Below, piece after piece: positions 2,277 to 36,191 of a stretch of 43,976 bases of DNA. The stretch comes from a virus. Under the pieces are notes generated by a model. It was not told the origin of the DNA. It made no database searches and saw only the letters and a list, made by a program, of their open reading frames with translations. Within the stretch, counting starts at the first letter, position 1; each line of letters opens with the position of its first letter. Both the position numbers and the translations under genes were made by a program. The stretch is from positions 1-43,976 of the IMG/VR virus record IMGVR_UViG_3300038461_000191, one strand, 5' to 3'.

Positions 2277-2284
2277 TAATAATA

Positions 2285-3494: not shown

Positions 3495-3503
3495 GTATTT
3501 ATA
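3495..3503 (+). promoter_or_regulatory. Late-type promoter GTATTTATA for the gp25-like gene
   Basis: TTAGTATTTATA immediately after a terminator and 15 nt before ATG 3519. This is one of about a dozen copies in the window at the same position relative to starts. No conserved -35 is visible. Confidence 0.7.
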
Positions 3504-3518
3504 GAAAAATCTTTTATA

Positions 3519-3917
3519 ATGGCTTCATATAATATTACCTTTCCATTAAATGATGATGTCAGCACAAATACTTATTTTTTAATGAGTAAAGTGACCAAAG
3601 ACGCATTCAGTTCTGATTTGTTATTACTCTTGCTTACAAGTAAAGGTGAAAGATATTATGAACCAGACTATGGTACTAATCTATTAAAATATATATTCGA
3701 ACCAAACGATAATTTAGATGCAAATGATATTGAACAAGAAATTAAAACAACTGTATCAACATATATTCCAGCACTTACAATTAATAGTGTAACTTTTAAT
3801 TGGCTTACTGATGACGAAGGAAATCCAATATCGGAGAATCAGGTAAATGTTAACATTAAATTTACATTTAGCGAAGATGCTTTTAGTGAAAAAGGTGAAT
3901 TAGATTTAAACTTTTAA
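3519..3917 (+). CDS. gp25-like baseplate wedge protein
   Basis: 132 aa, the normal size for the GPW/gp25 family. The diagnostic stretch LLLTSKGERYYEPDYGTNL and YIFEPND (about residues 38-65) matches the family signature GER-x-x-PxxGxxLxxxxFEP. In T4 the gp25 protein is a wedge component at the junction with the tail sheath and is needed for contractile tail baseplate assembly. It is the first gene after the terminator and late promoter and is followed 18 nt later by the gp6-like gene, the standard contractile-tail order. Confidence 0.9.
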   Translation: MASYNITFPLNDDVSTNTYFLMSKVTKDAFSSDLLLLLLTSKGERYYEPDYGTNLLKYIFEPNDNLDANDIEQEIKTTVSTYIPALTINSVTFNWLTDDEGNPISENQVNVNIKFTFSEDAFSEKGELDLNF

Positions 3918-3934
3918 AATATAAAATATAAAAT

Positions 3935-5782
3935 ATGGCAAACGACACAACTCAAAACATTATACAATACGGAAGCAGAACTTTCGGAGATATAAGAACT
4001 GATTTAATAAGTTATATTCGTCAGGCATACCCAGAGATTTTATCTGACTTTACTGATAGTTCAGTTGGCGCAATGCTTATTGATTTAAATGCTGGCGTTA
4101 CTAATAACTTATCTGTCAATACTGATAGAGCATTTCAGGAAACGCAAATAGACTATGCACAACAAAGAGCATCAATTTTAAATATTGCGAAAAATATGGG
4201 ATTTAATATTCCAGCAAGAAGACCTTCAGTAACTGTAATCGATTTTACTGTAACAGTTCCTGTTCTTGGTGACAAACCAGACGCTTCGTATTATCCTCAA
4301 TTACAAGCAGGTGCACAAATACTTGGTGGTGGAAAGATATTTGAAACGCAAGCAATTATTGATTGGAGTTCACCAATAAGTAATTTAGGTGACCCTAATC
4401 GTTCTATTATTCCAAACACAGATTCAAATGGTATTATTATTAATTACAGTATAACAAAAAGAGAAGTGGTTATTAATGGTTCTACAAGCATTTTTAAAAG
4501 AGCAATTAGTTCAACAGATATTGTACCGTTTTTTTCAGTAACATTGCCAGACCCAGACGTACTCGAAATAGATAATGTTATTTTATTGGAAGGTACTAAT
4601 TATTCAAGTAATCCGACTGCTGCAGATTTTGCTACAGCAGCAAACAAATATTATGAAGTAGATTGGCTTGCACAACAAAGAGTATTTGTTGCAAATAGAA
4701 ATAGTTCACAGCCAAATACAAATACAAATGGACTTAAGGCAGCAACATGGATTGATGTGACCAAAAAATTTATAAAAGAATTTACAACTAACGGTTATTG
4801 TAAAGTAATATTTGGTTCGGGTGATGCAGATGTTGATGCATTCAAATCAGGTTTTCTCAAAATGGGTGTAAGTAATCAATATTTTCTTGAAAACTTTTTA
4901 AATAATACAGCATTGGGCGAAAAATTATTGGCAAATTATACATTATTTATTCAATATAGAACTGGTGGTGGTAGTAATTCAAACGTGGGAGCAGGTACTT
5001 TAACACAACTTGGTAATTATAATTTAACAGTTCAAGGTTCTCGTCAGGATTATAATCAGACAGTACAAAGAAGTTTAGCCGTTAATAATCCTATTCCTGC
5101 AATTGGTGGTAATGATGGATTGAGTATTGAACAAATAAGACAATTAATAAAATATAATTTTAGTAGCCAAAATAGAGATGTAAATTTAACAGATTATTTA
5201 TTACAGCTTTATAAGATGCCGGGGCAGTTTGGTTCACCTTTTCGTGCTAATTCAATGAAATTAAATAATAAAGTTGTTATTTCAACATTAGGTATTGGGT
5301 CAGATGGTAAATTAGACAATACAAGTACCACATTAATGAATGAAAATATTGCAGAATATCTTAGTCAATTCAGAATGCTTAATGATTATGTTGAAGTAAC
5401 CAACGGTAAGATATTTAATTTGGCTTTTGATGTTGATGTATATGTTGAAAATGTTGCCGATAATCAGGTTGCAAATAGTATTATTACACTTGTTAGAAAC
5501 TATCTGGATATTAATAATTATGAAATGAATCAGGATTTGTTTCTGGGTCCGCTTCAACGTGAAATACTCTCAGCCAATGGAGTTATTAACGTTATTGACA
5601 TTAAAGTATATAACAGAGTGGGTGGTCAATATTCAAATAACGTTATTTCTCAAGATATTAATCCAAGTACTGGTGAAATAACTATCATTAACAATACAAT
5701 TCATTCAACTGAAGATAGTATGTTTGAAATAAAATTCCCAGAAAAAGATATCACAGTCTTCTTACGTAAATCAACAGGTTAA
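3935..5782 (+). CDS. Baseplate wedge protein, gp6/J-like
   Basis: 615 aa, similar in length to T4 gp6. Residues about 1-75 (YGSRTFGDIRTDLISYIRQA, YPEILSDFTDSSVGAMLIDL) and 85-110 (ETQIDYAQQRASILNIAKNMG) are the characteristic N-terminal part of gp6/baseplate J proteins. The middle carries a beta-rich insertion; the C-terminal third (NLAFDVDVYVENVADNQ, LQREILSANGVINVIDI) resembles the J-type domain. gp6 forms the central ring that ties wedges together and triggers sheath contraction. The stop overlaps the next start by 1 nt (TAATG), indicating coupled translation. Confidence 0.85.
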   Translation: MANDTTQNIIQYGSRTFGDIRTDLISYIRQAYPEILSDFTDSSVGAMLIDLNAGVTNNLSVNTDRAFQETQIDYAQQRASILNIAKNMGFNIPARRPSVTVIDFTVTVPVLGDKPDASYYPQLQAGAQILGGGKIFETQAIIDWSSPISNLGDPNRSIIPNTDSNGIIINYSITKREVVINGSTSIFKRAISSTDIVPFFSVTLPDPDVLEIDNVILLEGTNYSSNPTAADFATAANKYYEVDWLAQQRVFVANRNSSQPNTNTNGLKAATWIDVTKKFIKEFTTNGYCKVIFGSGDADVDAFKSGFLKMGVSNQYFLENFLNNTALGEKLLANYTLFIQYRTGGGSNSNVGAGTLTQLGNYNLTVQGSRQDYNQTVQRSLAVNNPIPAIGGNDGLSIEQIRQLIKYNFSSQNRDVNLTDYLLQLYKMPGQFGSPFRANSMKLNNKVVISTLGIGSDGKLDNTSTTLMNENIAEYLSQFRMLNDYVEVTNGKIFNLAFDVDVYVENVADNQVANSIITLVRNYLDINNYEMNQDLFLGPLQREILSANGVINVIDIKVYNRVGGQYSNNVISQDINPSTGEITIINNTIHSTEDSMFEIKFPEKDITVFLRKSTG

Positions 5783-6663
5783 TGGAATTAATAAAGAAAA
5801 CCATATATAGAATAATGACAACTGGCACAACAACTGGTTGTACTGGTACATGTCGTGTAATTATTCCAGATATCAGTACTGGCGTTACATATAATTTTAA
5901 GATATTGTTAAATCAAGAAATAAAAGATGCTGGATTTTTTGATGCATATGTATTAGACTCTCCATTTAATTATATTCAAGTATCAGGTGCTACAAGTGCA
6001 GATATTATACAAAAACTCATAAAATTTAAATCTCTTTTAACTGGTGGTACAACACTTGCGGGAAGTGGCTTGTTAATATCTGGTAGTAGTGGTTATATTA
6101 TTGGAACTGACGAATATTGGAGTGGTGGTACGCTAATAACGCCATCACATAATCATATTGTTACTGGAATGAGTTATTGGAGTGGTGGTACATGGGTATC
6201 ATTAATAATCAATTCGACACATTCAGTTACAGGACATTCAACAAGTAGACTTGCAGAACTAAGAAAATATGTAACTGGTGGTACTATAGCGCAAATATAT
6301 GTAACTGGTGGTACTTCCATAATAGATGGGATTGTTTTGGCTCAGTCAACGGGAAATACTATTGTTTATTTTCTTGGTGGAATTCGATATGTCGATATTC
6401 TTACAGGAGATACATCGGGAACAACATTTAATTTTATCACAAGTGGATATACAAACAATCCTAATTTTATAATTAAGCCAATATATCAAACTCCAAATAA
6501 GGAAAATATTATTAGTAACCCAAAAATCAGTAATGATGTATTTATAATAAGACAAGAATTACCAGCATTTGATGGAAATTATAGATTAGAATATATAAGA
6601 AAATTGGTTGATTTGGAAACATATGCAGCAGGTAAATTTTTTAATGTAATTAATAACACATAA
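5782..6663 (+). CDS. T/S-G-rich baseplate-region protein
   Basis: 293 aa. N-terminus MELIKKTIYRIMTTGTTTGCTGTC, then many short T/S-G-x-T/S motifs (VTGGT twice, YWSGGT twice, LTGGT, TGDTSGTT), typical of beta-turn-rich virion proteins. The C-terminal 60 residues (NDVFIIRQELPAFDGNYRLE, LVDLETYAAGKFFNVINNT) look like a compact domain common at the ends of baseplate or tail proteins. No enzyme motif. It is coupled to the gp6-like gene by a 1-nt overlap, so it is likely a wedge or peripheral baseplate component. Exact T4 equivalent not assigned. Confidence 0.75.
   Translation: MELIKKTIYRIMTTGTTTGCTGTCRVIIPDISTGVTYNFKILLNQEIKDAGFFDAYVLDSPFNYIQVSGATSADIIQKLIKFKSLLTGGTTLAGSGLLISGSSGYIIGTDEYWSGGTLITPSHNHIVTGMSYWSGGTWVSLIINSTHSVTGHSTSRLAELRKYVTGGTIAQIYVTGGTSIIDGIVLAQSTGNTIVYFLGGIRYVDILTGDTSGTTFNFITSGYTNNPNFIIKPIYQTPNKENIISNPKISNDVFIIRQELPAFDGNYRLEYIRKLVDLETYAAGKFFNVINNT
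6115..6315 (+). repeat. Short coding repeats (YWSGGT and VTGGT units)
   Basis: A 17-nt sequence, TATTGGAGTGGTGGTAC, is repeated exactly at 6115 and 6175, 60 nt apart, and GTAACTGGTGGTACT is repeated at 6271 and 6301, 30 nt apart. The spacing is a whole number of codons (20 and 10), so these are protein repeats produced by tandem duplication. Confidence 0.8.
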
Positions 6664-6667
6664 AAAC

Positions 6668-7498
6668 ATGAAAACCAGAAAATTTATTACCAATTATACA
6701 AATGAAGAGATTGATGAAATAGTTTCACTATATTTATCAGGAATATCATTAACGTCAATTAGTAATAAATTAAATGTTGTAAGACGCACTATAAAGAAAA
6801 TACTCCTATTAAATAATGTTTGGATTGAAAATAGAGATAATGTAAAAATTAATTTTTCAAATAAAGAAATTGATAAAATAAAAGAAATGTATTTGAACGA
6901 AAATTTTAGTACAGAAAAAATAGGATGTTATTTCAATGTTAGTAAGATACCAATAATAAAAATATTAAAAAATTTAGATATTTTGAGAAAAGGATATAGT
7001 AACGGTATTAAAATTAATTTAACTGAAGAAAAAAAAGAAAAAATTGAAAATTTATATTTAAATAAATATAAAAGTGCTGAAGAAATTGGAAAAGAACTTA
7101 ATTTAACCGCATCATTTATAAATAAACATTTAACTACCGTTAACTATAGAAGAACTGTTAGTGAGGGAGTATCAATTGGTTTAGTTAAACGTACTGGAAT
7201 TGAATATGATAAATATTTAAAAAACTTACCAGAATATAAAAAATATAGATTATTTGTTGTTAAATTAACCAATAGACAACCAATAAATTTATTGGAAAAT
7301 TATAATAAAAGAGGTGTTTCTGGAATTGATGGCGCATATTGTTTAGATCACAAATATTCAATTTTTGAAGGATTTAAAAATGGCATTAAGCCAGAAATAA
7401 TTGCAAGTTTAAAAAATCTTGTATTTATACCTTGGAGAGAAAATGTTATTAAAAGAACAAAATGTTCGATAACTAAAGAAGAATTAATAAATATTTAA
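6668..7498 (+). CDS. HNH-like homing endonuclease with three HTH repeats
   Basis: 276 aa. The N-terminal two thirds hold three similar helix-turn-helix units of about 50 residues (TNEEIDEIVSLYLSGISL, SNKEIDKIKEMYLNENFS, TEEKKEKIENLYLNKYKS), each followed by a recognition-helix pattern, suited to reading a long DNA site. The C-terminus has an HNH-type core: YCLDHKYSIFEGFKNGI (D227, H228), then LKNLVFIPWRENVIKRTKC. It sits alone between two baseplate genes, 4 nt after one and 4 nt before the next, the usual behaviour of a free-standing phage homing endonuclease. Codon use is strikingly A/T-rich. No promoter of its own is evident. Confidence 0.85.
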   Translation: MKTRKFITNYTNEEIDEIVSLYLSGISLTSISNKLNVVRRTIKKILLLNNVWIENRDNVKINFSNKEIDKIKEMYLNENFSTEKIGCYFNVSKIPIIKILKNLDILRKGYSNGIKINLTEEKKEKIENLYLNKYKSAEEIGKELNLTASFINKHLTTVNYRRTVSEGVSIGLVKRTGIEYDKYLKNLPEYKKYRLFVVKLTNRQPINLLENYNKRGVSGIDGAYCLDHKYSIFEGFKNGIKPEIIASLKNLVFIPWRENVIKRTKCSITKEELINI

Positions 7499-7502
7499 TA
7501 TT

Positions 7503-8435
7503 ATGGCAATTGGTTCATATGGAGTTACGAGGTCTGCAGATGTTAATATTGAAGATATTGACATGTATTATAATTATGCTCCAGACAGACAAACAAACAA
7601 TACAAATATAATTCCATTAGTTGCAACAGAATTATTGTCTTATCTTTATCTACCAAGCACTGACCCAAATTTTATACCAGTAGTTAATCCAAGTTTACTT
7701 GAAAACAGTAACGTATTGGAAGGGTTATATAATTTAAGATTACCAGCAGCAATTTTTAATCAATTAGGGATATATACAATTTACATTAAACCAAAACTTA
7801 TAATGACAACAATTGTTGATTGTGGTGTTTTATCTTCATTACCAACAGTTAACGGTATTGTAATTGATTTGAGCACAACTCCCTTGCCTGATAATTTAAA
7901 AGCAAATAACGCATTACAGGGATTTAAAATTGAATATCTTAATTCAGATAACACTAAATTAAGAAACGTGGTACGATATGTTGTTACTTCAAATAAAGTA
8001 GTTCCTGTTAGTGAAAACGTTGGAAATACTTCTCAAAAAGCAGTCAGATATCGTTTTGATGATTTAGGTACTTTGATGTTTTTACAATTAACTCCAAGCA
8101 GTTCTTCAGATGTTAAGCCAAATGTGTTGCCTTTTATTGGTAATGTGGGCGGAATAATTTTGATGACAAATACCTATTTTTCACCGCTTGTATTGGAAGT
8201 TGAATTAGTTGAAAACACTATTGGTACATTGGCGGATATTGTTGGGGGTGAGCAAATTAAAGACGTTCAAAATGGTATTTTAACAATTTATGATAAAAAT
8301 AGAGTAATAACCGATCAGTTTAATCTTTTTGAAATTAAAGACGATGTGTCAAATGTGCCTTTATTCGAGGTCAAGGAAAAAAGAAATTCGATCGATGAGA
8401 CCCAAAATTTTAACAATATAACTTCTGGCATTTAA
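7503..8435 (+). CDS. Baseplate/tail structural protein
   Basis: 310 aa. Begins MAIGSYGVTRSADVNIEDID, with predicted beta-rich segments throughout and no catalytic motif. The family cannot be named, but its place between the wedge genes and the large tail protein, and translation frame continuity with the late operon, indicate a virion role. A GTATTTATA copy inside the preceding endonuclease gene (7421-7429) lies 73 nt upstream and could serve as a promoter, although the distance is longer than usual. It ends 23 nt before the next endonuclease start, and that gap contains a host-type promoter. Confidence 0.75.
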   Translation: MAIGSYGVTRSADVNIEDIDMYYNYAPDRQTNNTNIIPLVATELLSYLYLPSTDPNFIPVVNPSLLENSNVLEGLYNLRLPAAIFNQLGIYTIYIKPKLIMTTIVDCGVLSSLPTVNGIVIDLSTTPLPDNLKANNALQGFKIEYLNSDNTKLRNVVRYVVTSNKVVPVSENVGNTSQKAVRYRFDDLGTLMFLQLTPSSSSDVKPNVLPFIGNVGGIILMTNTYFSPLVLEVELVENTIGTLADIVGGEQIKDVQNGILTIYDKNRVITDQFNLFEIKDDVSNVPLFEVKEKRNSIDETQNFNNITSGI

Positions 8436-8446
8436 ATAAAATTTTG

Positions 8447-8454
8447 TATATTTG
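8447..8454 (+). promoter_or_regulatory. Bacteroidota-type -7 element (TATATTTG)
   Basis: TATATTTG fits the TAnnTTTG consensus exactly and lies 3 nt before ATG 8458, which implies a leaderless or very short-leader mRNA for the endonuclease gene. The -33 position (around 8424) is poor, so strength is uncertain. Confidence 0.5.
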
Positions 8455-8457
8455 CAA

Positions 8458-9555
8458 ATGCCAAAAAATTTAACAACCATAGAATTTATTAAAAAAGCAA
8501 AAAATATTCATGGAAATAAATATGATTATTTAAATGTTAATTATATTGATTCAAAAATAAAAATTGATATTATTTGTCCCAAACATGGTGTTTTTAAGCA
8601 AAAACCGAATTCGCATTTAATGGGTCGTGGGTGTCCCAAATGTGTTAATAAAAATGTAACAATTGAAGAATTTATAAAAAAAGCAAAAAATATTCATGGA
8701 AATAAATATGACTATTCTTTGGCAAAATATCTAAATAGTAAAATCAAAATAAAAATCATATGTCCTAAACATGGTGAATTTCTACAAATACCAAATAGTC
8801 ATTTAATGAATCGAGGTTGTCCAAAATGTAAAGTTGAAAAAATGATTATTTCAAGACAATTAACAACCAAAATATTTATAAATAAAGCCAATTTAATTCA
8901 CAATTATAAGTATGACTATTCTTTGGTTGAATATAAAAATAATCATACAAAAATTAAAATTATTTGTTCTGAGCACAGTATTTTTAAACAAATTCCTAAT
9001 ACACATTTAAATGGGGGTGGTTGTCCTAAATGTGCTGGTTTAAACAAAACAACCGAAGAATTTATAATTGGTGCAAAAAGGGTGCATGGAGATAAATATG
9101 ATTATTCAGTTACAAATTATATTGGAAGTAAAAAATGTCTTAAAATAATTTGTCTTGAACATGGATTATTTGAACAAAAAGCAAGCGATCATTTAAGTGG
9201 TTGTGGTTGTCCAATTTGTAAAGAATCTAAAGGCGAAATTAAAATAAAAAAATATTTAGAAAAACAAAATATTGAATTTATAAAAGAAAAAATATTTAAT
9301 AATTGTAAAAACAAACTTCCGTTGCGTTTTGATTATTATTTACCAAAGTATAAGTTACTTATTGAATATGACGGTGAACAACACTTCAAAGCGGTAGAAT
9401 ATTTTGGCGGAGAAAAAAGTTTTATTACAAGACAAAAAATTGACAACATTAAAACTGAATTTGCTAAAGCAAATGATATTAAGTTAATTAGAATTGCATA
9501 TAATGAAAATGTTGAAGAAAAATTAAGTAAAATCTTTGAACTAACATTAGTATAG
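8458..9555 (+). CDS. Homing endonuclease: four zinc-ribbon repeats plus Vsr-like nuclease
   Basis: 365 aa from ATG 8458; a TTG two codons upstream is unlikely. Four repeats of about 60 residues share F-x-KKAKNIHGNKYDYS, then CPKHG-x-F-x-Q-x-PNxHL and GCPKC, a Cys4 zinc-binding DNA-recognition unit (DUF723-like). After residue 255 comes a Vsr/PD-(D/E)XK-like nuclease: RFDYYLPKYKLLIEYDGEQHF with E303, D305 and H309, like the EDxHD homing nucleases. It lies between two virion genes with its own host-type promoter and a terminator after it, so it is a self-contained mobile nuclease. Related in design to the gene at 19341. Confidence 0.85.
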   Translation: MPKNLTTIEFIKKAKNIHGNKYDYLNVNYIDSKIKIDIICPKHGVFKQKPNSHLMGRGCPKCVNKNVTIEEFIKKAKNIHGNKYDYSLAKYLNSKIKIKIICPKHGEFLQIPNSHLMNRGCPKCKVEKMIISRQLTTKIFINKANLIHNYKYDYSLVEYKNNHTKIKIICSEHSIFKQIPNTHLNGGGCPKCAGLNKTTEEFIIGAKRVHGDKYDYSVTNYIGSKKCLKIICLEHGLFEQKASDHLSGCGCPICKESKGEIKIKKYLEKQNIEFIKEKIFNNCKNKLPLRFDYYLPKYKLLIEYDGEQHFKAVEYFGGEKSFITRQKIDNIKTEFAKANDIKLIRIAYNENVEEKLSKIFELTLV

Positions 9556-9556
9556 T

Positions 9557-9588
9557 AAACATTAAAAAAACGAATATTTAATGTTTAG
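9557..9588 (+). other. Inverted repeat after the endonuclease gene
   Basis: TAAACATTAAA (9557-9567) and TTTAATGTTTA (9578-9588) are perfect inverted repeats directly after the stop codon. They may stabilise the mRNA 3' end or mark an insertion boundary. No T run follows, so the real terminator is the next hairpin. Confidence 0.5.
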
Positions 9589-9605
9589 TAAAATTCTGAC
9601 ATTAA

Positions 9606-9638
9606 AAATCTCAATCATATGTATTGAGATTTTTTTTT
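9606..9638 (+). terminator. Rho-independent terminator
   Basis: Stem AAATCTCAAT (9606-9615) with ATTGAGATTT (9623-9632), followed by an uninterrupted T run to 9638. It stops the endonuclease transcript just before the late promoter at 9642. Confidence 0.9.
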
Positions 9639-9641
9639 ATT

Positions 9642-9650
9642 GTATTTATA
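9642..9650 (+). promoter_or_regulatory. Late-type promoter GTATTTATA
   Basis: TTGTATTTATA directly follows the terminator T run and lies 16 nt before the GTG start of the large tail gene. Confidence 0.7.
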
Positions 9651-9666
9651 GTAAAATAGAAATTTT

Positions 9667-12600
9667 GTGGCAAAAGTAAAAGTAGTAGGTACAAATCTTG
9701 ACCAGAATTTAAATGGAACAAATTTTAATAATACGGCATCCGAAACAATATTTTCATTCGGTAGTTTTGCTGTTACATCAAATTTTGAAGGGAGAGTATC
9801 TATTGATTATTCAAATACATTAAGTTCATTTGTACGTCCAGTTACTCTTGAAACTATTGGTTTAACACAAACACAATCTGAAATCATACATCAGTATAAT
9901 ACTAACGCTGTTTTAAATTTAGACAAATCAGACTTAAATACCTTTGTTAGATTTGGTTCGGCATATGAATTTTTAAGAATATCGATACAAAACATCATTG
10001 TAGCATATCCGGGTAGTTTGTTTATGAACTCCCAACTTACACATATTAATACAATTACATTTAATAATTTTGTTTATAATTCAGTCACAAATGTTTCAAC
10101 TTTTACAATACCAATTGCATCTACAGTTAATACATTTGGTTTAGCATTTAATTATGGTAATGTAAGTAATCCAGATGATAATCCATTAAAAAATTTAAAT
10201 CTTTCTTATAATCAATATATTGTTTGGTCTACACTTAATCCTACTGGAAATTCGTATACAATTATTGGCTTTACTGGATATACTTCAAATAATCCAAATT
10301 TAACAGTTCAAACAATTGGTAATCCATTTCCAACTATTACAGGCGCAACATCTGGTTATTCTGGTGCAATTGATTTTCATATTAAACCAAACAATATTGT
10401 TTTTGAAGATTTCAGGTCATTATTAAGTGATTATGAAAAATATATTGTTTCAGAAAGAATAACTGGAAATACAAGCGGATTTAAATTCGTATTAAAAGAC
10501 CCTATTTTACTTGACAACGGAACTATTAGTTATTCGAATACACAGATGCTATGGACAACAAGCGATAACTATAACATAGATGTCAGCACTCCAAAATATC
10601 GTACTTTTTTGAGTAGCATTTTAGCGATTGGTAATAAGTATGATGCAATAAAGACAGACTTAATTGCACGATTTTTAACACCTGATTCTATTAAATCATA
10701 TGATCTTACTGAAGAAGGTAAAATGACCAAACTTTTAAGAATATACGGTAGAGAATTTGATCAAATGAAACAATTTATAGATTCTTTGGTTAATATTAAT
10801 CGTGTTAGTTATGATAAAGTTAACAATATTCCAGATCAATTAATTAAAAATCTTTCAAGAACATTTGGATGGAATTATTTTTCATTAGTAAATGAAGCAG
10901 AATTAGTTACCAGTCTTTTATCTATTAGTGATGCAGAAAGAAATTTAAACACTGATTTAATGCCAGCAGAAATCGATATTGAACTCTGGAGAAGAATATT
11001 AATTAACACAAATTATTTCTGGAAATCTAAAGGTACAAGAGAAGCATTAAAATCGATATTTCTTTTAATTGGTATACCTGAACCATTTATTAATATTACT
11101 GAATATGTTTATACTGTTGACGGCAAAATAAATCCTAATAGTGTACCATTTACTAAAGCAGATTTTCCTTCAAATTCATTACCATATGATACCAGTGGAT
11201 ATCCAGTTGCACCATTAGAAACCAGTGATTTCTTTTTTCAGGTCTCTGGTGACACTGATGCTGGTCAACATTATATGGATGCATTTCGTATGGCAGGATT
11301 TAATTTAATGCAAAATATTGACAACAGAAAATCATGGATTCAAACAGGTGCAACAACAAGAGTTGATAGCACAACGCCACAATATCATCAAGAAGATAGC
11401 AAACTTGTTATAAACACAAAAGAAGTTGACGTTGCCCTTGATACAGCACGTGGTATTGAGTATGATGTTTATGATTATATAAAAAATATTGATTTTCCTG
11501 CAAATTCAAGCGGGTATACGCTACCATTTTCTTATGTTAATATATCTCTGGGAGTAAGTGCATCACAAAGTACATTCGCATTACCAGCACCATACAATAA
11601 GACAGAAGGAAATTTAGAAGTTCGATATAATGGTATTTTATTAAATGCACCAAGAACAGGAGCGACAGGCACTACTCTATATGAAACTGATTATACAGTT
11701 ACGGGTAATAGTTTTACAATAAGAAATGGCAATTATGCTCATAATAATGCATATGAAAGGGATGTTATTCAGGCAACATTTATTTATTCAGGTAATACAC
11801 ATCCAGTTACTGGAATTAGCGTTCAATATATTGTAACAAGAGTTGACGCAAAAATGGGTGGAACTGTAATACCGTTACCAAGTTATCCACGTGGAGATGT
11901 ACAAGTAACTGTAAATGGTATTGCACTTACAAAAGGTACTCCGCAATTTATTGCCGATTATATTCTTGACCCAGCAAATACTACTGGTTCAAGTCAAATT
12001 ATTATTCAAAATTCTGATGTAATTTCATTTTTGGCTGTTAGTCCTACAATACAAGTAGCATATGTTCAAGTGGTTGGAAGCAATCAGATTAATGCAAGAA
12101 GTGAAGTTGTAAGAGTTGATAGTTTTAATAGTGGTAAAATATATTATAATGTTTCAGCAAATAAATATGTTTATAAACTTAATTATAAAGCAAATACAGC
12201 ATCAGATATTAAAGTATTGATAGATGGTATTGCATTAGAACCATATATGGATTATAATATTAATATACAAAATCAATATGAAGTTTTCTTACCAAAAGGT
12301 ATTAAGTATGGTACAATTATAAGTGTATATTATCTTGTTGCGGTTAGTTCATTCTTTAATCCAATCATAAGTGATGTTTTTGGTGTCGGTGATATAAGTA
12401 AATTGTCATTTCTCGAATTTATTGAATTTATTCAAAGAAAATTAATAAATGCAAGAAATAGAAAAACAATTACAGACTTTAAAGGTGGGTGGTATCCAAC
12501 ATTATTAAATGTTTATATTCAATATTTAAAACGTGCTGATCTTCCATTAAATGACCCGTTACATTCAAATGGTTATACTTTTGAAAATTTATATTCGTTT

Positions 12601-14279: not shown

Positions 14280-14288
14280 GTATTTATA
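14280..14288 (+). promoter_or_regulatory. Late-type promoter GTATTTATA
   Basis: TTAGTATTTATA in the 38-nt gap, 15 nt before ATG 14304. It would drive the wedge gene and the glycosyltransferase-radical SAM gene behind it. Confidence 0.7.
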
Positions 14289-14303: not shown

Positions 14304-15614
14304 ATGGCATTTATCGAAAAAAAAGACCCTGTAGTTATAAACATTAAAATTACTTCAATCGGGAGAGAATTATTATCTACGGGTAATTTGTCATTCAAAT
14401 ATTTTGTTATTGGTGATAGTGAAATGGATTATGCTTTTAATAAGGCAACAGGACTGAATCCATTTAATGCCAATATATTAAGACCTGTAGATACTAATCC
14501 TAATATTATATCTTTTATTCTAAAAAATGTATCTGGAACTACTGGTAATACACAATACAATACAATTTCAAGCATACCTGCTTCAACATATTTGGTTACT
14601 AATACGGTAGATTCAATTGGATTTTTTAGTAATCTTACTGGTGATACCACGTTTATTGTTGATGGGAACCATGTTAAACAACCAGATGTTATGATATACG
14701 TGAGTGGAATTACTGGTGGTACATCATTACAATTACGTAAAGCACCAGCATATGGTACAAGTGGTGCTGAACCTGCAGTTGGTGATTTACTTTTAATTAA
14801 ATGGACATTAACAGCAAATACAACTGGATATTCAACAGATATGTCACATCCAAGACCATTTTTAATTTATCAAATTACTGGTATTACATCAGGTACATTA
14901 GCAGCAAATAATTTAGTGGTTGGAGTTGATAGAAACCTACCTAATTTTAGTGGTATGAGTGCTACTGGTAAAGCAGGTGCTTTAATTTTTTATAATTATA
15001 TTAATTTTAGTGGTGGTACAATATTTACTACTTATTCAACAGATTACCTTGATGAAAGTGTATTAACTTTTCTACAAAATAGTCAGTGTCCAACAGTAAT
15101 ATTTCCATTTTGGAATATGTCAATTATATTTACCGAAGAAATTGCAGGAGTTCAGGCAGCAGATAAAAAATTTAGCGGATTTACCAGTGTTGCATATGGT
15201 GGATTTGTTTCATATATTCAAAATCAAGCACCTTTATATAAAAAATTGGGGATAATTCATTATACAAATGATTCACCAGCAAATGTATATGCAGAAGGTT
15301 TTTATTTAAAAACACCGAGACTGGATATTCCAACAATAATGTGGCACAAATCCAGCACAAAAAAATTGGGGGTGACCTTAACACCAACTGGCAACACAAA
15401 ACATATAAGTGGTACAACAACAGGGGCAACATCACTTAATTTGGAATATTATGATTTAGCAGACCCAGATGGAAATATTGTTGGTAAAGTATTTACTGAT
15501 TTAAAGATATTTGTAATCGAAGATCAAGAATTATTATTTGCAATGTCATATAAATCAAATAGATCATGGACACTTCCAAATTATATGATTACTTCTAATA
15601 GCGGTGGATGTTAG
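14304..15614 (+). CDS. Baseplate protein at the gp8 position
   Basis: 436 aa. N-terminus MAFIEKKDPVVINIKITSIG followed by RELLSTGNLSFKYFVIGDSE, a stretch typical of virion proteins that describe themselves as tail/baseplate in this phage group. The middle is rich in T/S-G-x-T/S turns (SGTTGNTQ, SGITGGTS, TGITSGT). The C-terminal half has FWNMSIIFTEEIAGVQ, YIQNQAPLYKKLGIIHYTND and a final beta-rich domain. No enzyme motif. Order after gp25, gp6 and the large protein suggests a gp8-like wedge component, but this is positional inference. It shares its promoter with the next gene. Confidence 0.7.
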   Translation: MAFIEKKDPVVINIKITSIGRELLSTGNLSFKYFVIGDSEMDYAFNKATGLNPFNANILRPVDTNPNIISFILKNVSGTTGNTQYNTISSIPASTYLVTNTVDSIGFFSNLTGDTTFIVDGNHVKQPDVMIYVSGITGGTSLQLRKAPAYGTSGAEPAVGDLLLIKWTLTANTTGYSTDMSHPRPFLIYQITGITSGTLAANNLVVGVDRNLPNFSGMSATGKAGALIFYNYINFSGGTIFTTYSTDYLDESVLTFLQNSQCPTVIFPFWNMSIIFTEEIAGVQAADKKFSGFTSVAYGGFVSYIQNQAPLYKKLGIIHYTNDSPANVYAEGFYLKTPRLDIPTIMWHKSSTKKLGVTLTPTGNTKHISGTTTGATSLNLEYYDLADPDGNIVGKVFTDLKIFVIEDQELLFAMSYKSNRSWTLPNYMITSNSGGC

Positions 15615-15635: not shown

Positions 15636-17618
15636 ATGAAAGAATTAAGATTTATATGTGCTCAACCTGCCATTAAGTATTACGCTTGGCAAATAGAGGT
15701 TTTGATAAATAATTTCATAAAAAACGGCATAAATCCAAATCAAATGGATATTCTTTGTGCAGTTGAAAATAACGTAATTCCTGAAGAATTTAAAAAACTC
15801 GCAGATACATATCCTGTGAGATTTTTTTTCTATAATGACACAAGAGCAAATAAGATATACATTCCTTCTATTTATTTTAATTTAATGAAGCAACATATTG
15901 CTGCTCACCCAGAAATTCAAAATGATGTTTTATTTTTACATGATGCCGATATTGTTTTTACTAAGAAGCCGAATTTTGATGAATTGATTCATGGTAGTTC
16001 TTGGTATATCAGCGATACAAAATTATATATTAATTACGATTATATTCAACAAAAAGGAAATCATATATATGAAAAGATGTGTGAAATTATTGGTATAGAT
16101 AAACTTATACCAAAATTAATGAATAGTAATTCAGGTGGTGCTCAATATATTGTAAAGGACACAAACTTTGAATTTTGGAATAAGGTTGAAAAGGACAGTA
16201 TAAAACTATACGAATATTTTTGTGATACAGAAAACCTACATATAAAAAAAGATCGTTATGATTATGCAATACAGAAATGGACAGCAGGTATGTGGAGTTT
16301 TCTTTGGAATGCTTGGTATTTTGGTCATGAAACTCTTATAGATAAAAAATTGGACTTTGGATGGGTAACAGATAGTTATGATTATATTGAAAAATACTGT
16401 ATATTGCATAATGCGGGAGTAACCAATGATACTAAAAGCGATAAGTTTTTTAAAACAGATTATATTAATGAATATCCATATGGAAAAGACATAAATGTTT
16501 CTGAAAAAAATGCATCGTACTTTTATTGGCAGGAAATATGTAAGACCGCAAAAAAATCTTGCTTAATTGAAAATAGTCAGAAAGTAATATTCAAACCCAA
16601 ATCAATATTTGATAATTTTAAAATTGATCAGATGCAATTAGACCCGTTTGGGGTTTGTAATGCCAAGTGTTGGTATTGTCCAGTAAAATATAATGGTAAT
16701 TCCGCAGAAGGACGTGAAGTTATGAGTCCAGAATTACTTGAGAAGATAATCAAAAATATGACTGATGAAAGAAACAGGGAAGACGGTCTTGTTTCAAAAA
16801 ATTTTGGTGGATTTTACACTGCGCATTATAATGAAATATTATTATACCCGCATTACGAAAAATTCTTGGAAATATGTAATAAATATGGAATGTGCTCAAT
16901 GATATTGTCAAATGGTATGGCACTAACTCCCGAAAAGGTTGATTTAATTAAAAAATATAAGCATGTGGTAAATGGTATTTGTTTAAACATTCCTGCATTT
17001 GATGTACTTACTTGGAGTAAAAGGTCAGGTTTTGACATTAGTTTATTTGATAAATTAATGTCAAATATTAAATATGCAATGGAAGTTCTGCCAGAAAAAG
17101 TACATGATAAATCGTTTTCAATTCAAATAAACTGTGTTAATAAGCAATCATTTGTTGAAGATGGTGGATGGTTAACTAAAGGTTATGATTTTCCACAAGA
17201 CATTGATTTGGACTTAATAAATGGAGAATTGGTACAACAAGAAAAACTTGCAAAAAGTTTATTTTTAAATTTAAATATATTTACAGTACCATCATTGATA
17301 GACAGAGCAGGTTTATTAAATAATGTCATATCAAATAAGTGGGCAATTGAAAGGTATTTGATGAAGGATGATAAGAATAGAAAGGTAATTGGTTGTGGTA
17401 ATGGTAGAGAAGTAGGTGGAAGACCAATTGGTTGGCTACATGTTAATGCTGCTGGTGATGCGTTTCTTTGTTGTAACGATTATAATTTTAGTTTTAAATT
17501 TGGAAATTTCAAAACACAGGAACTACGAGATTTTTGGGGAAAAGAGGAACATCAAGAAAAAATTAAAAAGGCATATGAGACAATATGTAGAGATTGTGCA
17601 TCTGCAGTTTTCGAATAG
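15636..17618 (+). CDS. Glycosyltransferase-radical SAM/SPASM fusion protein
   Basis: 660 aa, two enzymes in one chain. Residues 1-310: GT-A-like glycosyltransferase with a hydrophobic strand running into the metal/nucleotide-sugar site LFLHDADIVF (DxD at D103/D105) and conserved NSGGAQY and WTAGMWSFLWNAWYFGHE segments. Residues about 325-660: radical SAM domain with the CxxxCxxC 4Fe-4S motif at C341, C345 and C348 (CNAKCWYC), then a SPASM-type auxiliary cluster region with C587, C612, C613, C651 and C654 (FLCCNDYNFSFKFGN, ICRDCAS). SPASM enzymes usually modify peptides or proteins. The gene has no promoter of its own and starts 22 nt after a baseplate gene, so it should be made late with the virion proteins. 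Substrate unknown. Confidence 0.85.
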   Translation: MKELRFICAQPAIKYYAWQIEVLINNFIKNGINPNQMDILCAVENNVIPEEFKKLADTYPVRFFFYNDTRANKIYIPSIYFNLMKQHIAAHPEIQNDVLFLHDADIVFTKKPNFDELIHGSSWYISDTKLYINYDYIQQKGNHIYEKMCEIIGIDKLIPKLMNSNSGGAQYIVKDTNFEFWNKVEKDSIKLYEYFCDTENLHIKKDRYDYAIQKWTAGMWSFLWNAWYFGHETLIDKKLDFGWVTDSYDYIEKYCILHNAGVTNDTKSDKFFKTDYINEYPYGKDINVSEKNASYFYWQEICKTAKKSCLIENSQKVIFKPKSIFDNFKIDQMQLDPFGVCNAKCWYCPVKYNGNSAEGREVMSPELLEKIIKNMTDERNREDGLVSKNFGGFYTAHYNEILLYPHYEKFLEICNKYGMCSMILSNGMALTPEKVDLIKKYKHVVNGICLNIPAFDVLTWSKRSGFDISLFDKLMSNIKYAMEVLPEKVHDKSFSIQINCVNKQSFVEDGGWLTKGYDFPQDIDLDLINGELVQQEKLAKSLFLNLNIFTVPSLIDRAGLLNNVISNKWAIERYLMKDDKNRKVIGCGNGREVGGRPIGWLHVNAAGDAFLCCNDYNFSFKFGNFKTQELRDFWGKEEHQEKIKKAYETICRDCASAVFE

Positions 17619-17621
17619 AGA

Positions 17622-17630
17622 GTATTTATA
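17622..17630 (+). promoter_or_regulatory. Late-type promoter GTATTTATA
   Basis: AGAGTATTTATAGTAAAAATAGAA between two genes, 13 nt before ATG 17644. The flanks closely resemble those at 9642 and 29922. Confidence 0.7.
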
Positions 17631-17643
17631 GTAAAAATAGAAT

Positions 17644-18390
17644 ATGTTAAGCGGTTATACAATATTTACCACATATGTTTTTGTGCCGACATCAGGCAAC
17701 AGTCAGGCAATTCACTGTAATTATATTAAATCATTGCAATTGAGTGCAGACAATATTAATGTTCAGGAAATAAGTATGAGTTTTCCCAATTCTGATGATT
17801 TTAAATTTTTAAGTAATGATATTAGTAGCGGTACTGGTTATACTGCTAATAAAATATATGCAATAATTCAAGTTGTAAATAATAGTGGTTATACAAAGAT
17901 TTCTGATGTGAAACCGATTTCTGCAAATTGGAAGATTGTTGATTTAACCTCACAAGTTACTGGTTATTCTACAGGCAATACATTCATATTAACCCCTGCT
18001 CAATTAACGAGTGTTGTATTTAAAATTTCATTATTGAATTATGGTGGTTTTACTACCTATACATTATCTTATTTGAATTATCCGACAAAATTTTCTTCAG
18101 ATGACAATAAATTATGTTTTGGTGATGAAATATATTTCTTAGGTAATGTTTCAACCGATATACATGCGGATGTATTTGTAACTGATTTATCTATTCTATT
18201 AAATTTAAATGAATTTAATTCATCAACAAATCCAACATGGCTTCAAACAACACCACGACCAGCAGTTGCAATAACTGAAATTGGTATATATGATGCTAAT
18301 AAAAATTTGGTTGCAATTGGTAAATTAAACGACCCTCTTGTTAAGGATTCATCAATTTCAAGAACACTTGTATTTGATATTGACTTTTAA
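17644..18390 (+). CDS. Tail/baseplate structural protein
   Basis: 248 aa. Begins MLSGYTIFTTYVFVPTSGNS; contains several T/S-G-x-T turns (SSGTGYTAN, TGYSTGNTF). The C-terminus ITEIGIYDANKNLVAIGKLN, then a Ser-rich link and RTLVFDIDF, matches the ending of baseplate and fibre-attachment proteins, where an EIGLYD strand is common. It has its own late promoter and is the last structural gene of this block. Exact T4 counterpart (gp9, gp10 or other) not resolvable. Confidence 0.7.
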   Translation: MLSGYTIFTTYVFVPTSGNSQAIHCNYIKSLQLSADNINVQEISMSFPNSDDFKFLSNDISSGTGYTANKIYAIIQVVNNSGYTKISDVKPISANWKIVDLTSQVTGYSTGNTFILTPAQLTSVVFKISLLNYGGFTTYTLSYLNYPTKFSSDDNKLCFGDEIYFLGNVSTDIHADVFVTDLSILLNLNEFNSSTNPTWLQTTPRPAVAITEIGIYDANKNLVAIGKLNDPLVKDSSISRTLVFDIDF

Positions 18391-18714: not shown

Positions 18715-19344
18715 ATGGAAAAATATATTTGGTCATTGGACATTAGTACCACCAATATTGGTAGTACACTAATTGACATGAAAGGAAAACTTATTGAGTT
18801 AAAACATCTTGAATTAAAACTTGGTAAAGACATTCCTGTTGAAAATAGATATATTCATAAATCTGAAATATTTAGAAAATATATTGAAGAATATAAGGAA
18901 CGAATTTTACATGAACTTAATGGTGAAATTATAGAAATAATTATTGAAGAACCTTTGGGCGGAAGTAACAACGCTAATACAGTTTCATTACTATATGGTT
19001 TTAATGGAATATGTTCTTATATTTTATATAAAACTTTTAATATTTATCCAAAAAAAATTAGTGTTTATGAATCAAGAAAACTATTTTGTCCAGAATTAGT
19101 TCATACCTCAAAAAAGAAAAATAGAAAGACTGGCGAAATTGAAATTATTCAAACACTTTCATTTCCACCAGAATACATAAAAGAAAAAAAGTTGTATATT
19201 TGGAAAAAAGTTTGTAAATTAGAACCCCAAATTGAATGGTTTTATAAGAAAGACTCAAATGAACCTAAAGATATGTGTTTTGATATGGCTGATTCGTATT
19301 GTTGCTGTTATAGTGGCATCATTAAATTTGGTTTGTTAAAATGA
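18715..19344 (+). CDS. RuvC-like Holliday junction resolvase
   Basis: 209 aa. RNase H-fold signature: first strand WSLDISTTNIGSTLID with D9, second motif IIEIIIEEPLGG with E78/E79, and C-terminal helix CFDMADSYCCC with D190 and D193. This is the D-E-D pattern of phage and poxvirus RuvC-like resolvases. It would resolve branched replicative DNA before packaging, the task of gp49 in T4. It overlaps the next gene by 4 nt (ATGA). An alternative is a related RNase H-like nuclease, but the spacing of the acidic residues fits RuvC well. Confidence 0.85.
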   Translation: MEKYIWSLDISTTNIGSTLIDMKGKLIELKHLELKLGKDIPVENRYIHKSEIFRKYIEEYKERILHELNGEIIEIIIEEPLGGSNNANTVSLLYGFNGICSYILYKTFNIYPKKISVYESRKLFCPELVHTSKKKNRKTGEIEIIQTLSFPPEYIKEKKLYIWKKVCKLEPQIEWFYKKDSNEPKDMCFDMADSYCCCYSGIIKFGLLK

Positions 19345-20231
19345 TTAAAAAATATAATATAGAATTTTTTAAAAAAATTGCTGTTGAAAAAGGTGGTGAC
19401 TGTTTATCTACCGAATATATTAATTGTAGAAATAAATTAGAATTTAAATGTAAATATGGACATATTTGGAAATCATTAGCAAGAAGTGTTAAATATTCAA
19501 AATCTTGGTGTCCGATTTGTTCAGGTCATATTAAATTAACTATTGAAGAAATGCAAGAAATTGCAAGAAATAAAGAAGGAAAATGTTTATCTAAAATATA
19601 TATTAACGCTAATATTAATTTATTATGGGAATGTAAATTAGGTCATAAATGGTTAGCAAATGCTAATCGAATAAAAAATTCAAATGATTGGTGTCCCATA
19701 TGTTCAAAAAATAAAAAATTAACTATTGAAGAAATGCAAAAAATTGCCATAGAAAGAGAAGGTAAATGCATTTCTAAAAATTATATTAATTGTGATACCA
19801 AATTATTATGGGAATGTCAGTACGGTCATCAATGGATGGCACTTCCTAAATCAATAAAATATGATAATAATTGGTGTCCTGTTTGTAATGAATCTTTAGG
19901 TGAAAGAGCAATAAATAACTATCTAAAACAAAATAATATTATTTTTGAAAGAGAAAAGAAATTTATTGACTGTAGGGGTAAAAGACGTGTACTTTCATTT
20001 GATTTTTATCTTCCTGAAAATAATGCATTAATTGAATATGATGGTAAACAACATTTTATGCCCGTTAATTTTTATGGATGTTCAAATGAAAAAGCACAAA
20101 AAACACATTTTGATTCAAAAGAAAATGACAATTTAAAAGATAAATATTGTAATGATAATAGCATTCAATTAATCAGAATACCCTATACAATAAAAAATGT
20201 TGAAGAACACCTGAATAATGCTTTAAGATAA
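19341..20231 (+). CDS. Homing endonuclease: three zinc-ribbon repeats plus Vsr-like nuclease
   Basis: 296 aa. Three repeats of about 65 residues follow IAxxKxGKCLSxxYIN, LxWECxxGHxW and WCPxC, each a probable Cys4 zinc ribbon for DNA contact. From about residue 185 (ESLGERAINNYLKQNNIIFE) a Vsr-like PD-(D/E)XK nuclease follows: LSFDFYLPENNALIEYDGKQHF with E232, D234 and H238. It overlaps the resolvase by ATGA and the next nuclease by 1 nt. The repeat class differs from that at 8458, but the nuclease design is the same. It probably invaded the resolvase region. Confidence 0.85.
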   Translation: MIKKYNIEFFKKIAVEKGGDCLSTEYINCRNKLEFKCKYGHIWKSLARSVKYSKSWCPICSGHIKLTIEEMQEIARNKEGKCLSKIYINANINLLWECKLGHKWLANANRIKNSNDWCPICSKNKKLTIEEMQKIAIEREGKCISKNYINCDTKLLWECQYGHQWMALPKSIKYDNNWCPVCNESLGERAINNYLKQNNIIFEREKKFIDCRGKRRVLSFDFYLPENNALIEYDGKQHFMPVNFYGCSNEKAQKTHFDSKENDNLKDKYCNDNSIQLIRIPYTIKNVEEHLNNALR

Positions 20232-23576: not shown

Positions 23577-24653
23577 ATGGTTGAAGGTCAGGAATTTCAT
23601 TCAATATTACAAAACATCTTTGGTGATGTTCAAGGGATAAATCAGTCAAGTCAATTGCAAGTAAATTGTCCGATGTGTGCTGAACGTGAAGGTTTGTCCG
23701 AACCAGATGGTAAATTTAATCTTGAAATCAACACTAAAAAGCGTTTATTTCGTTGTTGGAAATGTGAAAATCCCTCATTTAGCGGGTCATTAGGAAGATT
23801 GATTAAAATATTTGGAAATGACGCTGATTATCAAATGTATAAATCGTATGCAGGTTCTTTTAATGATTATGATTACGAAGAAGATGAAAAAGAATATGTT
23901 GCAGTTAAGTTACCTGAAGAAATGATTTTATTTTCTCAAATGGAAGCAGGTAATTTAGAACATTTTGAGGCATACAATTATATGGTTAATGATAGAAAAA
24001 TATCGAGAGAGATAATTTTAAAATATCGGCTCGGTTTTTGTACTACTGGAAAATATGAAAAAAGAATAATAGTTCCTTCTTATGATGCAAATGGTGAAGT
24101 GAATTATTTTGTTGGAAGAACTTATGACCCTCTGATGGAGAAGAAAAAGAAGTATGATAATCCAAGATCAGATAAGGATAAGATTATTTTTAATGAGGGT
24201 CTTGTAAATTGGGATTCTACTGTATACCTTGTTGAAGGTGCGTTTGAAATGCTGTCATTTCCTGTTAACATAATACCAATGTTGGGAAAGACGATATCAA
24301 CCACATTATATTTAAAACTGAAAGAAATGAAACCAGATGTGGTTGTATTGTTAGACCCTGATGCTTACAAAAGCAGTATTGATTTATATTATAAATTACA
24401 TACGCTTTATGTTGATTGTGAAGAAAGGGTAAGAATAGTTAAACTACCAACTATGGACGACTTAGATAATCTGAGAAAAAAATTTGGTATCGATGAGGTT
24501 ATTAAAAGTTTACGTGGTGCGAGAGGATTAACTGTCGATGATTATTTTGTTAATAAATTACAGAAACCCTATGATAGAAAAGGATACGGAAGATATGATT
24601 CTAATTCAAAACATTTTGAATGGAAATCATCAGGCAGAGGAAATATTTTTTAA
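23577..24653 (+). CDS. DnaG-type DNA primase
   Basis: 358 aa. N-terminal zinc-binding domain with CPMC (C31, C34) and CWKC (C60, C63). TOPRIM core: YLVEGAFEML with E220 and VVLLDPDAYKS with D260/D262. It would make RNA primers at the phage fork. It is shorter than bacterial DnaG and lacks an obvious C-terminal helicase-binding domain; the C-terminus is instead a Ser/Gly/Tyr-rich tail. No helicase gene is seen in this window. The 3' end overlaps the sigma-factor gene in another frame by roughly 60-115 nt depending on that gene's start, so the two are tightly linked. Confidence 0.9.
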   Translation: MVEGQEFHSILQNIFGDVQGINQSSQLQVNCPMCAEREGLSEPDGKFNLEINTKKRLFRCWKCENPSFSGSLGRLIKIFGNDADYQMYKSYAGSFNDYDYEEDEKEYVAVKLPEEMILFSQMEAGNLEHFEAYNYMVNDRKISREIILKYRLGFCTTGKYEKRIIVPSYDANGEVNYFVGRTYDPLMEKKKKYDNPRSDKDKIIFNEGLVNWDSTVYLVEGAFEMLSFPVNIIPMLGKTISTTLYLKLKEMKPDVVVLLDPDAYKSSIDLYYKLHTLYVDCEERVRIVKLPTMDDLDNLRKKFGIDEVIKSLRGARGLTVDDYFVNKLQKPYDRKGYGRYDSNSKHFEWKSSGRGNIF

Positions 24654-25206
24654 GAAATATCAAAAAATAGTTAAAGATTTTTTACGAAGTATTTTTCCCA
24701 AACAAAAACCAGAAGATATTGATGATTATACATCAGAAATATTAATTAAAGTTTTTGAATCACTAAAAATGATTGACCCTGAAAAGGGTAGTGTTAAAAC
24801 ATGGATATTAGTTATTGCGAGACATTTTATAACTGATGTATATAGAAAAAGTTCTGTCTCATTCACATCAACATTTAATAATTCTGGTATAAGCATTAGT
24901 AACAATGATGCTCAAAATTTAAGATTTAATGGAGAGTCAACTGCTTGGGCAGTTGATAATGAAGTATCAAATAGTTGTTCGTTTACTGTTTGTAATAATA
25001 GAGAATTTGAAAATTGTAACACTATTTCTTATTTATCATCACAGATATCTCCAGTTGATTATGGTTTATTAAATATGAAATATATACAAGGATATAGTCA
25101 TTGTGAAATTGGTAAAGAATTTAATCTTACAAGTAGTACGGTCAGTAATCGAATAAATTATATTAAAACTAAACTAAAGAAACAAAATGTCGATATATTA
25201 GAATAA
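24571..25206 (+). CDS. Phage-encoded ECF-like sigma factor
   Basis: 211 aa from ATG 24571, giving MIEKDTEDMILIQNILNGN, the usual short lead before the sigma region-2 helix; ATG 24538 and ATG 24595 are alternatives. Region 2: EEIFFKKYQKIVKDFL, DIDDYTSEILIKVFESL, GSVKTWILVIARHFITDVYR. A Ser/Asn-rich linker of about 60 residues follows, then region 4: LLNMKYIQGYSHCEIGKEF and TSSTVSNRINYIKTKLKK, an HTH. Domain order and length fit ECF (group 4) sigma factors. It overlaps the primase end in another frame. It is the best candidate to read the GTATTTATA promoters in this genome, as T4 gp55 does for late genes. Confidence 0.85.
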   Translation: MIEKDTEDMILIQNILNGNHQAEEIFFKKYQKIVKDFLRSIFPKQKPEDIDDYTSEILIKVFESLKMIDPEKGSVKTWILVIARHFITDVYRKSSVSFTSTFNNSGISISNNDAQNLRFNGESTAWAVDNEVSNSCSFTVCNNREFENCNTISYLSSQISPVDYGLLNMKYIQGYSHCEIGKEFNLTSSTVSNRINYIKTKLKKQNVDILE

Positions 25207-28621: not shown

Positions 28622-28630
28622 GTATTTATA
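28622..28630 (+). promoter_or_regulatory. Late-type promoter GTATTTATA
   Basis: TTAGTATTTATAATAAAC right after the sbcDC stop, 12 nt before ATG 28643. Confidence 0.7.
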
Positions 28631-29921: not shown

Positions 29922-29930
29922 GTATTTATA
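29922..29930 (+). promoter_or_regulatory. Late-type promoter GTATTTATA
   Basis: AGAGTATTTATAGAAAATAAAAAG, 13 nt before ATG 29944. Confidence 0.7.
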
Positions 29931-36182: not shown

Positions 36183-36191
36183 GTATTTATA
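36183..36191 (+). promoter_or_regulatory. Late-type promoter GTATTTATA for the endolysin
   Basis: AAAGTATTTATAGGAAAAAG, 14 nt before ATG 36206 and directly after a terminator. Confidence 0.75.

Follow-up and report, generated by a model that had tools for sequence, protein, structure and literature searches.

A viral genome record of 43,976 bases in IMG/VR, classed as linear and probably a fragment, encodes a protein in which a glycosyltransferase (GT) is fused to a radical-SAM enzyme. The acceptor and chemistry that we infer, on a modest balance of evidence, make this protein a two-step glycan builder: the GT domain would O-glycosylate poly-threonine (poly-Thr) tracts of virion proteins, and the radical-SAM domain would oxidize or epimerize the sugar. 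That the GT family, PHROG 4417, consists of poly-Thr virion glycosyltransferases is likely, and if it does, action of the radical-SAM domain on the sugar can be expected with nearly the same confidence. The whole record was analyzed and is referred to as the window. The fusion gene occupies positions 15636 to 17618 on the plus strand as a single, uninterrupted, and intact reading frame of 660 codons (protein P0001), in keeping with the preliminary description of one chain of 660 amino acids.

The GT domain (residues 1 to 305; 15636 to 16550, plus strand) belongs to PHROG 4417, to which residues 5 to 304 were matched with an E value of 6.2e-68. This orphan family occurs in phages of Enterococcus, Lactococcus, Lactobacillus, Staphylococcus, Arcanobacterium, and Chryseobacterium and in many uncultivated viruses. 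The GT half matched no Pfam GT family and, by sequence, no PDB entry. Modeled alone with AlphaFold2, it reached a mean pLDDT of 95.3 and a pTM of 0.92, and Foldseek placed this model beside UGGT, LARGE1, glycogenin, and alpha-1,3-galactosyltransferase (query TM, 0.4 to 0.5; E, about 1e-6). For the first half of the whole-chain model, the PDB matches were GlyE, glycogenin, and UGGT. These solved matches are all distant and point to no donor sugar; the fold and the DxD motif together place the N-terminal half among predicted GT-A folds. The motif itself, D103-A-D105 (15942 to 15950, plus strand), would be the metal/nucleotide-sugar site, lies in the context FLHDADIVF, and is invariant in 36 of 36 GT relatives, which, with a GT-A fold predicted at a pLDDT of 95, bears out the earlier reading of a GT-A-type DxD site.

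The C-terminal half (residues 323 to 660; 16602 to 17615, plus strand) is a member of the radical-SAM superfamily by motif, Pfam match, and AlphaFold2 model. Residues 338 to 486 match Pfam Radical_SAM (1.4e-9) and residues 599 to 654 match Pfam SPASM (3.8e-9), both above the gathering scores. The radical-SAM motif, C341-N-A-K-C345-W-Y-C348 (16656 to 16679, plus strand), retains its three cysteines in 58 of 58 radical-SAM relatives, so that the CxxxCxxC assignment made initially stands. Farther downstream (17394 to 17597, plus strand), C587, C612 (in G-x4-C), and C651-x2-C654 are invariant among the same relatives and C613 is kept in 98% of them. A full SPASM domain, which binds two auxiliary clusters, follows the pattern CX9-15GX4C ... 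CX2CX5CX3C ... C. Here, the chain ends six residues past C654 and the CX5CX3C tail is absent, so the two-cluster pattern is not found despite a Pfam SPASM score over the cutoff. With only the first part of the SPASM motif present, the cysteine pattern is that of a twitch-type (shortened SPASM) domain with one auxiliary cluster expected. Twitch domains are defined as truncated SPASM domains with four Cys ligands and one auxiliary cluster, and the twitch enzyme BtrN performs a two-electron oxidation of a sugar-like alcohol (PMC9012708).

In the profile search of the radical-SAM half, BtrN ranked first (1e-12) and YydG second (7e-4). Foldseek against the PDB returned DesII, SuiB, BlsE, anSME, BtrN, and EpeE for the second half of the model, with a target TM of 0.66 to 0.74 for BtrN, and peptide-modifying enzymes (SuiB, EpeE, and SkfB) are also among the fold matches. 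BtrN (butirosin 2-deoxy-scyllo-inosamine dehydrogenase; PDB 4M7S/4M7T) is thus the solved enzyme nearest in sequence profile and one of the nearest in fold, with the twitch domain and one auxiliary cluster in common, but it stands alone as a protein of about 250 residues in an antibiotic pathway, whereas the domain described here shares a chain with a GT and is associated with virion proteins. The SPASM peptide maturases SuiB, SkfB, and EpeE share the radical-SAM core fold and a C-terminal Fe-S extension; unlike them, the window's domain has neither the full SPASM motif nor a detected peptide-recognition domain, and it has a GT partner. With the second half of SPASM absent and BtrN closest among solved enzymes, a full SPASM/RiPP-maturase reading is not our first choice. 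Kinship with viperin was also set aside, the NCBIfam match (2.6e-6) being far under its cutoff and reflecting generic radical-SAM similarity. No match to the radical-SAM half was obtained in 50,697 phage records. The SPASM-like cysteine cluster of the preliminary description is therefore present and passes the Pfam cutoff, but the SPASM label and the radical step on protein that it implied need revision, given the twitch-type pattern, the action of BtrN on a sugar-like ring, and the occurrence of some poly-Thr-less relatives in sugar biosynthesis clusters.

From 62 window and locus sequences, AlphaFold2 modeled the whole chain with a mean pLDDT of 94.2 as two rigid domains joined by a short uncertain linker (residues 314 to 321), and its pTM of 0.57 means that the mutual orientation of the two domains is not fixed by the model. 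Prediction of both halves, the check originally proposed, thus yielded a GT-A fold and a radical-SAM fold, each with high confidence.

The fusion gene is flanked on both sides by unnamed virion-type genes. The −1 gene (14304 to 15614, plus strand) encodes a 436-amino-acid protein that could be aligned to an 846-amino-acid protein of a relative, and the +1 gene (17644 to 18390, plus strand) encodes a 248-amino-acid protein kept in that relative at 50% identity. Genes resembling the gp25 and gp6 baseplate wedge genes lie at 3519 to 5782. No flippase, membrane anchor, or other envelope gene was recognized adjoining the fusion gene in the window by Pfam, PHROG, and neighbor annotation. HNH/homing endonuclease-like genes interrupt the structural cluster (6668 to 7498, 8452 to 9555, and 19341 to 20231), and a resolvase/transposase-like pair occupies the left end (1295 to 3418).

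A promoter-like motif, GTATTTATA, is located 21 to 24 nucleotides upstream of 14304 (motif at 14280 to 14288, plus strand) and of 17644 (17622 to 17630, plus strand) and is absent upstream of 15636, from which we conclude that co-expression of the fusion gene with the −1 gene from a shared putative promoter is consistent with the motif pattern. The earlier claim of a late promoter shared with a baseplate gene accordingly fits as regards sharing with the 14304 to 15614 gene, but, the immediate neighbors being unnamed virion-type genes, the baseplate identity of that neighbor is not established. For the 14304 gene, the spacing is 23 nucleotides. The motif recurs in the window at 3495 to 3503, 9642 to 9650, 28622 to 28630, 29922 to 29930, and 36183 to 36191, here too about 20 to 24 nucleotides before start codons. 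Its core, TATTTATA, is found 15 to 27 nucleotides upstream of 3519, 9667, 17644, 28643, 29944, 31445, 32283, 36206, and 41130 (minus strand), and a count of TATAAATA/TATTTATA gives 28 occurrences, where shuffles would lead one to expect 13.2. It is probably a phage-specific promoter. A scan for sigma-70 promoters gave no excess over shuffles, and a sigma-factor gene is present in the window at 24538 to 25206.

Relatives collected from IMG/VR formed 92 loci after 90% clustering, window included; on the GT side these draw on the best 80 of 479 GT matches, and the ORF calls in fragments are mechanical. Among these distinct loci, 7 encode the fusion (seen in L002, L003, L004, and relatives), 10 have it split into separate nearby genes, 41 contain the GT only, and 34 the radical-SAM domain only. 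The nearest relative found, L003, is a 299-kb contig whose GT-radical-SAM protein is 80% identical to that of the window, and in L010 (7995 to 9946) the two domains are encoded by genes overlapping by four bases. The search for the same domain pair in other genomes, as first suggested, has therefore succeeded for fused and split forms alike, with virion-type neighbors. Chance fusion or an assembly artifact is rejected, given that the fusion recurs in seven distinct loci, that split forms exist, and that the radical-SAM domain has also been joined, separately, to a different GT.

This other GT is of the PF11397 “GlcNAc” type, a family we take to be polypeptide GlcNAc-transferases of the Skp1/GT60 type. 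It is encoded in 11 of 34 genes downstream of radical-SAM genes lacking PHROG 4417, with GT2 in others, and in five deltaproteobacterial contigs (L312 to L316) a PF11397-type domain and this radical-SAM domain make up one protein (Pfam for L316: PF11397, 1e-61; SPASM, 5e-6; Radical_SAM, 2.8e-6, the last just below the cutoff). In a tree of 58 radical-SAM domains, those linked to PHROG 4417 form one clade (99/95), inside which GT2-linked domains also fall, and those linked to PF11397 are scattered in separate places. Taken together, fusions, neighbors, and tree indicate that this radical-SAM family has had GT partners from at least three families. The PF11397 neighbor from phage loci had no match in phage records. 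PF11397 GTs resemble the present system in adjoining or being fused to the same radical-SAM domain in related loci, and the poly-Thr proteins described below resemble Thr-rich mucins; the window's GT differs in belonging to PHROG 4417, and the bacterial and phage PF11397 enzymes seen here are putative.

The L316 fusion (4675 to 6948 of that contig) directly follows a Tox-PAAR-like gene and, with DUF3540 and pentapeptide-repeat genes, forms part of a type VI-like spike locus, so the GT-radical-SAM module may also modify a cellular injection-spike protein in Deltaproteobacteria. In Betaproteobacteria (L317 to L322), the radical-SAM domain is chromosomal and stand-alone, with no recognized GT beside it. 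Two radical-SAM paralogues share one phage sugar cluster in L022, L023, and L025, along with GT2, sulfotransferase, NAD-dependent epimerase, and methyltransferase-like genes (Pfam on L022). The L004 fusion (7755 to 9974) has a third, N-terminal domain, a small Cys-rich module with C..C, C..CGC, and CPxGKW motifs, which in other phages has its own gene, immediately preceding that of the radical-SAM protein (L157, L160, L165, L174, L178, L179, and L184). The small protein is Pfam DUF6171 in three of the neighbors scanned and PHROG 13558 in L184. A recurrent order is poly-Thr protein, small gene, Cys-rich protein, radical SAM, and GT (mostly PF11397 type), and the DUF6171-type protein is possibly a third component.

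The acceptor is suggested by the gene preceding the GT, which in relatives commonly encodes a virion-type protein with long, mucin-like poly-Thr tracts, e.g., TTTTTTTTTEAPTTTTTT. With at least 11 Thr in 20 residues as the criterion, a poly-Thr gene is at −1 in 42 of 57 distinct GT loci (six of seven fused, 30 of 40 GT-only, and six of ten split) and at +1 in none of the 57; the Fisher P value for −1 versus +1, 1e-18, is inflated, as the loci share ancestry and P values overstate their independence. In the reverse direction, IMG/VR DNA was scanned for (ACN)11, giving at least 120 stretches. Among the matches listed, the GT is the same-strand +1 neighbor of the poly-Thr gene in 12 of 80 cases and at −1 in 0 of 90, and Pfam GT2 adds 4 of 52 downstream versus 1 of 56 upstream. 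As for the radical-SAM loci, a poly-Thr protein is encoded no more than three genes away in 22 of the 38 that have a GT partner, versus 0 of the 20 that lack one. The poly-Thr proteins often hold Cys-rich modules.

The 44-kb window itself contains no poly-Thr tract, in the −1 protein or elsewhere, so the acceptor of this copy was not seen. Its −1 protein is 62% identical to the first half of the 846-amino-acid protein of the 299-kb relative and stops where the poly-Thr-bearing C-terminal part of that protein starts. Further poly-Thr proteins are encoded about 10 kb and about 50 kb away in the 299-kb relative, and for this reason the acceptor of the window's phage may lie outside the fragment. 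One of these distant proteins adjoins a fibre-like protein with an endosialidase-chaperone-like C terminus (labeled by eye).

The link extends to cultured phages. The GT half was found by tblastn in 72 phage records, mostly from Gram-positive hosts. All 15 records sampled for diversity have a Thr-rich tract, defined as 9 or more Thr in 20, no farther than about 6 kb from the GT, versus none of seven hand-picked controls without the GT. The hosts of the 15 are Enterococcus, Lactococcus, Lactobacillus, Lacticaseibacillus, Staphylococcus, Arcanobacterium, and Chryseobacterium. Typically, the tract forms the extreme C terminus of the major tail or major capsid protein or belongs to a small gene directly before the GT. 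In phiFL1A, the capsid protein ends in ...TTTTTKPTTTTTKPTTTTTTTQG and the tail protein in ...TTTTTSTTTTTTSSTTTTTTTQASSK; in P1046, the capsid protein ends in ...TTTTTTTTRHD and the product of the gene before the GT in ...TTTTTTTTTTHHD. Two of the 15, bIL285 from L. lactis IL1403 and Planchet, reach just 9 Thr in 20, with Planchet the weakest case. The seven GT-less phages, among them phiFL3A from the same genus as phiFL1A, have a maximum of 8 Thr in 20 and no such tail. Major capsid and major tail proteins of several unrelated Gram-positive phages (L310 [phiFL1A], L334 [P1046], L326, L323, and others) thus end in poly-Thr when PHROG 4417 is present, and the poly-Thr tail looks like a general glycosylation tag.

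In the mechanism we propose, the GT-A domain would move a sugar from a nucleotide sugar onto Thr residues of mucin-like virion tracts, a step for which the inference is well supported. Acceptors would usually be the −1 gene product, fibre- or adhesin-like in relatives; in Gram-positive phages, they would be C-terminal tails on the major tail or capsid proteins. More tentatively, the radical-SAM/twitch domain would abstract a hydrogen from the sugar; an electron could then pass to the auxiliary Fe-S cluster, as proposed for BtrN, leaving the sugar oxidized, or hydrogen return could leave it epimerized instead. The sugar might be edited before or after attachment to protein, and tethering of the two domains would couple both steps. 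Tail structures would thereby become densely coated with unusual O-glycans.

We consider it unlikely that the GT decorates poly-Thr tracts while the radical-SAM domain modifies the polypeptide, for instance by Thr epimerization or by cross-linking to cysteines of the Cys-rich modules that separate Thr tracts. The frequency of such modules in poly-Thr proteins, the fold matches to the peptide epimerase EpeE/YydG and to sactisynthases, and the second rank of YydG in the profile search would suit a peptide target. BtrN, acting on a sugar-like ring, is nevertheless the better profile match by far (1e-12 versus 7e-4), only one auxiliary cluster is expected, and Pfam detected no peptide-recognition domain. 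A GT partner is present in all 22 radical-SAM loci with poly-Thr nearby, and some homologues that lack poly-Thr have NAD-dependent epimerase, sulfotransferase, and GT2 genes in their clusters. Twitch architecture, BtrN match, GT partners wherever poly-Thr is near, and these sugar clusters are the grounds on which we favor a sugar over a peptide.

Less probable still is a purely positional link: the tail-fibre region would simply be a favored site for poly-Thr genes and these enzymes alike, and the true substrate would be a host glycan or some other product of the phage. This would agree with the lack of a poly-Thr tract in the window and with the 68 of 80 poly-Thr genes, among the matches listed, that have no PHROG 4417 GT directly downstream, such tracts therefore occurring without the GT too. 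Against it stand the strict asymmetry between −1 and +1, the agreement of presence and absence in isolates across seven host genera, with a Thr-rich protein that is frequently a major tail or capsid protein and not a fibre, and the lack of poly-Thr in radical-SAM loci without a GT. Alteration of a host envelope polysaccharide in lysogeny or late infection, which the preliminary description had offered as an alternative, has precedent in phage GTs that change host serotype, as mentioned in PMC12619734, and in the polysaccharide-type clusters holding some radical-SAM homologues, but with no envelope gene recognized adjoining in the window and virion-type genes on both sides it is weakened to a very improbable reading. 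Modification of a virion protein by sugar transfer plus a radical step, also put forward there, is strengthened by the poly-Thr neighbor in relatives, the split genes, and the pairing of the radical-SAM domain with other GTs, although a baseplate acceptor is not established.

Glycosylation of phage virions is already known. In the mycobacteriophages Che8, Corndog, and Myrna, phage-encoded GTs are reported to glycosylate capsid and tail-tube proteins at their C termini (Freeman et al. 2023, as cited in PMC12619734 and PMC12363180), a likeness to the GT step proposed here. In contrast, Thr content in the Che8 major capsid and tail proteins never exceeds 4 per 20 residues, which leaves them without a poly-Thr tail and sets the acceptor of that known system apart; the 72 phage records matched by the GT half with tblastn include no mycobacteriophage; and no radical-SAM partner is mentioned for virion glycosylation in the portions of PMC12619734 and PMC12363180 consulted. 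By GT homology and acceptor tail, the window's protein thus falls outside the mycobacteriophage type, though it may work in a similar way. The open-licence literature searched contained nothing relevant on poly-threonine with phage or on a GT-radical-SAM fusion in phage, and the poly-Thr tag, the role of PHROG 4417, and the radical-SAM partner were likewise not found in it. The proposal of an undescribed tail-protein modification system accordingly holds, within that literature, for the poly-Thr target and the radical step but not for phage virion glycosylation as such.

To our knowledge, a radical-SAM enzyme acting on a protein-linked sugar would be new chemistry. As a broader and distinctly tentative picture, poly-Thr tracts could be a widespread phage “mucin” glycosylation tag served by interchangeable GTs, with the fused radical-SAM domain editing the protein-linked sugar in place in uncultivated phages and a parallel on a type VI-like spike protein in Deltaproteobacteria. 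Mycobacteriophage virion glycans affect antibody recognition (PMC12363180), and virion glycans might affect adsorption or stability. If true, glycosylation of poly-Thr virion tails would explain both the orphan family PHROG 4417 and the odd Thr tracts, and it is testable in cultured phages.
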